Positions 58,898 through 59,976 of a DNA stretch of 64,000 nt are shown one piece after another. The notes below the pieces were generated by a model that saw only the letters and a program-made list of their open reading frames with translations, made no database searches and was not told where the DNA came from. A program made the translations under genes and the position numbers. The stretch's first letter is position 1. Each line of letters starts with the position of its first letter. Source of the DNA: Bacteroidota bacterium (GTDB lineage: Bacteria > Bacteroidota > Ignavibacteria > UBA10030); the NCBI GenBank assembly GCA_021813905.1, contig JAKAJH010000007.1:1-64000 (forward strand). The letters run 5' to 3'.

Positions 58898-59059
58898 TCA
58901 TGAACCAGAGCCCTTTCTCCGCCATGGTATCATACCTCCCTGGTCGTTCGGCAAGCCGATGCCGGAGAAATGTTCTTTGATTCTCTTCTCGAGAGCCTGA
59001 GTGGAGTCACAATAGAGGTGTGTCGATCGAAGACGAAGGATGGAGAACCAGGAACGCAT
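58898..59059 (-). pseudogene. Decayed GIY-YIG nuclease remnant (unit B)
   Basis: 'MRSWFSILRLRSTHLYCDSTQALEKRIKEHFSGIGLPNDQGG' aligns to 'MPAWFYILRLQSQVPYCGYTKDRVRRYREHFAGLGGRTTKLD' of unit A, then diverges and truncates. Confidence 0.6.
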
Positions 59060-59082
59060 ATCCCCCTCAGAAAGCAAAAACA

Positions 59083-59105
59083 CCCACCGGAGTGATTTCA
59101 GTGGG
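59083..59105 (-). terminator. Terminator-like hairpin of unit B
   Basis: Minus strand CCCAC-N13-GTGGG followed by TGTTTTTGC. Confidence 0.45.
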
Positions 59106-59246
59106 AGAATCTTGTGGGCCTCTCGACTCGGCCCGCGCAAGAACTACGGGGCTCGCTCGGGACTCTTCGACTCGCACTTTGAAGCGGCAGAGCCTTGAGC
59201 GATCCCCGGTGCGTCCCGAAAAGGGAACACCCCAATGCTGTGGCAA

Positions 59247-59280
59247 CGGGGCGTGTCGAAGGGCTCCGCGAGTAGGACTC
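59247..59280. repeat. Copy of the tRNA-Asn 3' tail plus flank (unit B boundary)
   Basis: cggggcgTgtcgaagggctccgcgagtaggactc; 33/34 identical to 59781..59814. Confidence 0.9.
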
Positions 59281-59342
59281 CCCGCCCGACTTCGTCGTGC
59301 GGGAGTCCCCTCCCATCTTCATTGGATGGTCACTTCATCCGT

Positions 59343-59627
59343 TCATCGCTTACATCGCTTCGACAAACGCCTCAGCTCGACGAGGTCGCCGCGGATCAGA
59401 GCCTCCTTCTTTGCGCGAACCCATCTCTTGACCTGTTTCTCTCTCTGTAGGGCTTCTCGATACGTATTGAACTCCTCTTCATGAACGACCGCCACCGGAG
59501 GATCGAGTTTCGTCGTGCGACCTCCCAGGCCGGCGAAGTGTTCTCTGTATCGTCGGACTCTATCCTTGGTATATCCACAGTAAGGAACCTGCGATTGAAG
59601 CCGAAGGATGTAAAACCAGGCTGGCAT
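59343..59627 (-). CDS. GIY-YIG nuclease family protein (unit A)
   Basis: 'MPAWFYILRLQSQVPYCGYTKDRVRRYREHFAGLGGRTTKLDPPVAVVHEEEFNTYREALQREKQVKRWVRAKKEALIRG'; SD GGGGGAGGGA upstream. Confidence 0.88.
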   Translation of the reverse strand: MPAWFYILRLQSQVPYCGYTKDRVRRYREHFAGLGGRTTKLDPPVAVVHEEEFNTYREALQREKQVKRWVRAKKEALIRGDLVELRRLSKRCKR

Positions 59628-59651
59628 GAGTCCCTCCCCCATAAACGAAGA

Positions 59652-59683
59652 ATCCCCCACGTCTGAGAGACAGAGCGGGGGAT
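59652..59683 (-). terminator. Terminator-like hairpin of unit A
   Basis: Minus strand ATCCCCC...GGGGGAT followed by TCTTCGTTT, between tRNA tail and GIY-YIG start. Confidence 0.55.
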
Positions 59684-59780
59684 GCTGAGTGTTGATGCGC
59701 CTTTCGACTCGCCTCTCGGTGGGGCGGAGCCCTGAGCGAGCCCCGCAGCCAAGAAACGACTTCGCCCAGCTATTCATCAG

Positions 59781-59814
59781 CGGGGCGAGTCGAAGGGCTC
59801 CGCGAGTAGGACTC
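59781..59814. repeat. tRNA-Asn 3' tail plus flank (unit A boundary)
   Basis: cggggcgAgtcgaagggctccgcgagtaggactc; 33/34 identical to 59247..59280. Confidence 0.9.
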
Positions 59815-59869
59815 GAACCTACAACCCTGCGGTTAACAGCCGCATGCTCTACCATTGAGCTATCGCGGA
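59798..59869 (-). tRNA. tRNA-Asn(GTT)
   Basis: Minus strand TCCGCGATAGCTCAATGGTAGAGCATGCGGCTGTTAACCGCAGGGTTGTAGGTTCGAGTCCTACTCGCGGAG; 7-bp acceptor stem, anticodon loop CTGTTAA, GGTTCGAGTCC T arm. Confidence 0.95.
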
Positions 59870-59976
59870 ATGATGTGAAAGACCGACAAATATTCACAAC
59901 GAAAGCTCACGAACCTGTGAGCTTTCATCTTCAATATAAAAGCAATTGCCTCAAAAGTCAAGAGAAACGGCCTTCG

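Follow-up and report, generated by a model that had tools for sequence, protein, structure and literature searches.

Why should a bacterial chromosome carry, at its only tRNA-Asn gene, two successive copies of that gene's 3' tail, each followed by an ORF for a GIY-YIG nuclease? This question is raised by the minus strand of the window, by which we mean the whole 64,000-nucleotide stretch of DNA that was analysed. The sequence-only reading had proposed a minimal mobile element that inserted twice at the tRNA 3' end. We therefore examined the architecture of the locus, its counterparts in relatives, and the known systems that it resembles.

Architecture of the tRNA-Asn locus

The recognisable parts of the locus are the following.

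59795..59870, minus strand: intact tRNA-Asn(GTT) (ARAGORN; Rfam tRNA, 72.9 bits)
59781..59814, minus strand: tail copy 1, the tRNA 3' end from the T-loop (GAGTCC...GGAG) plus CCCTTCGACTCGCCCCG
59727..59800, minus strand: REP-like double hairpin, with an outer arm (GAGCCC/GGGCTC) that uses the tRNA 3' end and an inner stem CCCCGC/GCGGGG
59699..59713, minus strand: inverted half of the double-hairpin REP motif (GGCGAGTCGAAAGGC), forming an inverted repeat with 59784-59798
59652..59683, minus strand: terminator-like hairpin ATCCCCCGC..GTGGGGGAT located 5' of the unit 1 ORF, read from the sequence
59343..59627, minus strand: unit 1, intact GIY-YIG ORF of 94 aa, P0001 (Pfam GIY-YIG, E 1e-13)
59275..59308, minus strand: palindrome GGACTCCCGC..GCGGGGAGTCC, which breaks up the second tRNA copy at its T-loop (read from the sequence)
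59247..59280, minus strand: tail copy 2, a second tRNA-Asn 3' end
58898..59059, minus strand: unit 2, decayed and frame-broken GIY-YIG ORF (MRSWFSILRLRSTHLYC...)

The order along the minus strand is thus tRNA-Asn, palindromic spacer, hairpin, intact ORF, second tail copy, related spacer and decayed ORF, which the sequence-only reading had described accurately and with which ARAGORN and Pfam agree. The tail copies are, as it had reported, identical at 33 of 34 positions and spaced 534 bp apart. The tRNA-Asn(GTT) gene is the sole copy in the genome—the two other genome matches, 77-82% identical, are other isotypes—so any insertion must leave it functional. The T-loop interruption of the second tRNA copy is found at the same position in L127 and other loci, and the ORF of locus L136 is preceded by a hairpin similar to that at 59652..59683. 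The earlier claim that no integrase is present holds for the stretch between the att-like tails, which has no ORF of that size, and no HUH/Y1 transposase was found in the unit, where the GIY-YIG gene is the only recognised gene. There is no match to group I introns (RF00028) at the window unit, whose ORF has no surrounding intron, and an Rfam search of the window region detected no known RNA family in the spacer, the matches being to tRNAs only, bar sub-threshold noise.

P0001 belongs to the GIY-YIG superfamily (51.8 bits against PF01541, for a cut-off of 22.6) and consists of a single domain of 94 residues without a separate DNA-binding part. Its conserved residues are Y6, Y16, G18, R26, H30, E63 and K67, among which Y6, Y16, G18, R26 and E63 are invariant in 19 aligned sequences. 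In a single-sequence AlphaFold model (mean pLDDT 68), which is too weak for a fold search, the order of elements fits GIY-YIG. The gene is free-standing, outside any intron or intein, and linked to a tRNA, as expected of a SegB-type nuclease. No phage or plasmid vehicle was found, as the phage proteins matched by tblastn with P0001 or L029 were all distant (<60% identity) and a plasmid search gave no match. Incidentally, between 59343 and 59897 the GIY-YIG frame is open back through the whole tRNA-Asn gene and, counted from the first start, spans 184 codons; automatic annotation may therefore report a spuriously long protein.

How the two units relate to each other is informative. Outside the tail they agree at 184 of 339 aligned bases (54%) versus 33/34 within it, and assuming 35% divergence, the probability of such a tail is ~8e-6. 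The unit 2 ORF is closest to the G022 ORF L134 (24/35 residues) and shares only 17/35 residues with unit 1, while the unit 1 ORF groups with ORFs from G015 and G023, the support for this split being moderate (89/91 and 89/84). A simple recent tandem duplication of the window units is ruled out by the contrast between tail and remainder and by the grouping of the ORFs with different relatives. The same contrast, together with the resemblance of the ORFs to different sublineages, supports the two insertions in succession proposed earlier. Judged by sequence, the window fits two arrivals, and before the intact unit entered, the downstream tail would have been the functional tRNA end. Gene conversion may account for the near-identity of the two tails.

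tRNA linkage and partial tRNA copies in relatives

The earlier suggestion that further copies might exist turned out to be correct for relatives, which have many (up to 18 GIY-YIG matches per genome), but not for the window's own genome, where there is no other tRNA-linked unit and where the two additional short GIY-YIG ORFs, of which one is broken, both lie away from tRNAs. We surveyed 140 distinct small GIY-YIG domains from the order, taken by Pfam score and blind to tRNAs. A tRNA lies within 300 bp of 60 of these and within 700 bp of 10 more; units are not mainly found away from tRNAs. In each of the 70 loci whose fetched stretch contains a tRNA, the ORF and its nearest tRNA share a strand. 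The number of tRNAs declines with distance from the ORF, with 49 in the first 100 bp and 0 beyond 800 bp. By comparison, all 30 HNH loci sampled as controls in the same genomes lack a tRNA, and no rRNA or other RNA neighbours were found in 20 tRNA-free GIY-YIG loci. Relatives linked to tRNAs are also present in Omnitrophota and Patescibacteria.

The layout of these loci follows a rule: an intact upstream tRNA is matched by a copy of its 3' part on the downstream side of the ORF, and a downstream tRNA by a copy of its 5' part on the upstream side. With 14 nt of exact identity as the minimum, a partial copy of the tRNA of matching isotype was detected beyond the ORF in 67 of 93 cases. Pairing with other isotypes gave 9 of 1395, and the reverse strand 0 of 93. 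Units after other tRNAs, which the earlier reading had told us to look for, are therefore real, and because the matching-isotype layout recurs in dozens of relatives and is nearly absent with random isotype pairings, it is not due to chance. The rule proposed earlier, insertion at tRNA 3' ends, is too narrow: half of the elements precede the intact tRNA and have a piece of its 5' part instead. A palindrome, in many cases of the type TCCCGAC..GTCGGGA, splits half of the partial copies, and the breakpoints often lie in the D-, anticodon or T-loop. The hairpins at these breakpoints have a mean stem of 6.8 bp (4.1 in shuffles), and stems of at least 7 bp are seen in 33 of 67. Closed genomes have regular arrays in which 3-5 units, each 317-365 bp long, adjoin a single intact tRNA. 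In L236 five units of 365 bp come after tRNA-Met, in L238 three identical units of 323 bp precede tRNA-Ser, and L237 and L242 have comparable arrays at tRNA-Pro.

The ORFs also follow tRNA isotype. On the ORF tree, whose few columns make single branches uncertain, there are 30 changes of isotype, versus a minimum of 59 in 300 shuffles. Groups are visible for Asn, Asp, Pro, Ser, Leu/Cys, Arg and Ala, the tRNA-Asp clade taking in Desulfobacterota loci, and GIY-YIG genes are independently linked to about 12 isotypes. Upstream and downstream positions are mixed within isotype groups, which implies that one lineage can rebuild the tRNA from either side.

These findings bear on the possibility that duplication was passive, i.e., that a resident GIY-YIG gene was copied together with part of a tRNA by unequal recombination, the extra copies decaying and the gene having an unrelated cellular role. 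Regular, near-identical arrays are what RecA-mediated expansion is expected to produce—arrays could indeed grow by RecA acting between repeats, without the nuclease—and the purifying selection on the P0001 clade (dN/dS of 0.07-0.19 for pairs where it was computable) is compatible with a host function too. However, we consider this explanation unlikely since it does not account for ORF clades that follow isotype across families and phyla, for about 12 independent isotype linkages and occupancy that varies within genera (see below), or for window units of different sublineage that share a near-identical tail.

The orthologous tRNA-Asn site and its REP-like hairpins

A tRNA-Asn match was obtained in 31 family genomes, and in most of them the gene and the neighbouring ybaB-recR are divergently oriented, which allows occupancy of the site to be compared. 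The site is empty in L114 and L125, although orthology is less sure for these two because there is no ybaB within the stretch examined. Only a remnant is present in L113, L117 and L119, and L128 (G005) retains a 15-residue GIY-YIG remnant. The unit is upstream of the tRNA in L121 and downstream in the window, L111, L118, L122, L123 and others, and genera g9 and g10 each display several occupancy states. The empty-site check suggested by the sequence-only reading thus shows that architecture is not identical among relatives, and these differing states at an orthologous tRNA rule out a single old static duplication. For the window unit itself there is no strain-level before/after pair, as the sole congener is 55% complete and yielded no tRNA-Asn. 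As a side observation, L116 differs from L115, which is from the same genus, by ~190 bp between tRNA-Asn and the REP hairpin; this stretch, found in L116 only, ends in a second tRNA tail and resembles sequence downstream of the ORF.

The same tRNA is the target of another element. A group I intron (RF00028, 81-97 bits) is present in the tRNA-Asn(GUU) of nine family genomes (L130-L138), where it splits the gene between anticodon bases 35 and 36, and some of these introns enclose a small HNH-like ORF. In L130, L131, L133, L134 and L136, a GIY-YIG gene closely follows the intron-bearing tRNA, which may reflect collaborative homing.

The spacer, which had been described earlier as structured, is a REP-like double hairpin shared by the window (59727-59800) and L115, L122, L123, L126, L130, L131, L133, L134 and L136. 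Its loops are TTCGACTC and TCGCTCA, and the tRNA-Asn 3' end is its outer arm. Across these 10 tRNA-Asn loci, 98.8% of cells are paired with 38 double changes, a covariation reached in 0 of 500 shuffles. This double hairpin may end transcription or protect the tRNA end.

The P0001 subgroup at tRNA-Asn is well supported (99), and other members of its branch are found among REP-like palindromes away from tRNAs. From this placement in the tree, the window nuclease is best described as a putative REP-associated branch that has become fixed behind tRNA-Asn in the family, distinct from the main tRNA-associated branch. We also noticed a second GIY-YIG branch away from tRNAs (L012-L023, L027, L031, L032, L035-L037 and similar), which is surrounded by REP-like palindromes of the types CTTCGACAAGCTCAGG, GTCATTGCGAG and GTCATTCCCG and resembles a GIY-YIG counterpart of REP/RAYT systems. 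A genome-wide REP explanation was rejected, as the exact motif is nearly confined to the tRNA-Asn locus in the window's genome.

It could be argued from the REP-like spacer in the window, and from branch-mates of P0001 that sit among REP-like repeats without tRNAs, that the two associations are separate, REP-associated GIY-YIG genes filling intergenic space in a RAYT/REPIN-like manner and the window copy having landed behind tRNA-Asn by chance. We give this very little credence. The window sub-branch is behind tRNA-Asn in about a dozen genomes, the hairpin arms use the tRNA end and co-vary with it, the motif is rare elsewhere in the window's genome, and the tails are duplicated.

Known systems and a candidate homing-type element

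The statement in the sequence-only reading that no described element combines tRNA ends and GIY-YIG nucleases overlooked SegB of phages T4/T6, a free-standing GIY-YIG homing endonuclease (PMC13096335, PMC2988022), which by analogy is the closest known system. SegB is encoded among tRNA genes and cuts within them, preferring the motif RAWTSGAAC; it is needed for tRNA-Tyr and segB to be amplified in tandem, and the SegB-tRNA linkage is found in many phages (PMC13096335). The reverse complement of this motif, GTTCSAWTY, appears to resemble the T-loop, which is where the window tail begins. As in the window-type units, there is a GIY-YIG gene among tRNA genes, and tRNA and nuclease gene are amplified in tandem. 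Unlike SegB, the units described here are in bacterial chromosomes, encode about 94 aa corresponding to the catalytic domain only, and form isotype-specific clades. They also have a matched partial tRNA beyond the ORF with palindromes in its loops, and one intact tRNA is always rebuilt. A literature search to which most subscription papers were inaccessible found the phage work but did not turn up any description of comparable units in cellular genomes, of lineages specific to an isotype, or of tRNA copies broken by palindromes.

Other systems share some of these features. Group I introns, including in collaborative homing with free-standing endonucleases, likewise target the anticodon region of tRNAs, but the GIY-YIG units have no ribozyme and the tRNA is restored by sequence duplication rather than splicing. 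REP/REPIN sequences and RAYTs also combine palindromic repeats with a dedicated nuclease-type gene and are multi-copy in the genome; here, however, the nuclease is a GIY-YIG protein and not an HUH/Y1 tyrosine transposase, and the units are anchored to tRNAs and contain partial tRNA copies. Genomic islands at tRNA 3' ends similarly duplicate that end and restore the tRNA on insertion, whereas the present units are about 0.3-0.5 kb, lack an integrase, have breakpoints inside tRNA loops, and use 5' fragments as often as 3' fragments.

The co-orientation, isotype-matched copies, isotype clades, breakpoint palindromes, arrays and variable occupancy are direct observations, and the reading that we favour in their light, by analogy with SegB, is that the window probably contains two successive insertions of a selfish element of homing type directed at tRNA genes. 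Such an element would have three components: a gene for a GIY-YIG nuclease of one domain, a spacer with palindromes, and a partial duplicate of the host's tRNA gene. Its ORF has the orientation of the tRNA and would probably be expressed through transcription of the tRNA operon. The nuclease would cut within or beside its cognate tRNA gene, and recombination repair would copy the element in, a complete tRNA being rebuilt from the 5' or 3' part that the element carries. The displaced partial tRNA copy would remain beyond the ORF, where palindromes in its loops would block it from working as a tRNA or as a target, while the tRNA repeats flanking the ORF would permit tandem expansion. Whether these units further deserve to be viewed as a separate class of minimal bacterial element—about 0.3-0.5 kb made of a catalytic-domain nuclease gene and a palindrome-broken half of its own target tRNA, with one lineage per isotype, entering at tRNA loops and rebuilding from either side—is a more tentative proposal, to which we would not yet commit.

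The analogy with SegB also invites a different reading, in which nuclease and interrupted tRNA have been domesticated and serve the host, for example against phages or as an accordion that adjusts tRNA dosage, and are kept by selection. There is a precedent in SegB, where tRNA amplification acts against Septu and concerns phage T6 tRNA dosage (PMC13096335), and both the dN/dS of 0.07-0.19 and the co-orientation of ORF and tRNA would be in keeping with it. We nevertheless regard domestication as distinctly improbable. A PADLOC search gave no defence-family match for P0001 or L033 and negligible ones for L029 (partial hits, E about 0.004), the amplified units hold broken, non-functional tRNA copies, and the patchy occupancy and frequent decay look selfish.

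If the homing-type reading is true, it has several implications. First, tRNA-gene-directed GIY-YIG endonucleases would extend from phages to the chromosomes of bacteria in several phyla. Second, a parasite smaller than most genes would be living harmlessly inside an essential single-copy tRNA. Third, many unexplained short genes of the "GIY-YIG nuclease family" would be accounted for. The recurrence of the layout at many different tRNA genes points to a class of tiny selfish DNA, so far little studied, that enters tRNA genes and leaves them intact. The homing-type reading also poses the puzzle of how a 94-residue protein without a separate DNA-binding domain distinguishes tRNA isotypes. A last observation concerns L127, where three 105-bp tandem units follow tRNA-Asn (oriented positions 1490-1890), each with a tail, a terminator, tRNA positions 43-56 and a palindrome; these units have no ORF and are possibly a non-autonomous form.
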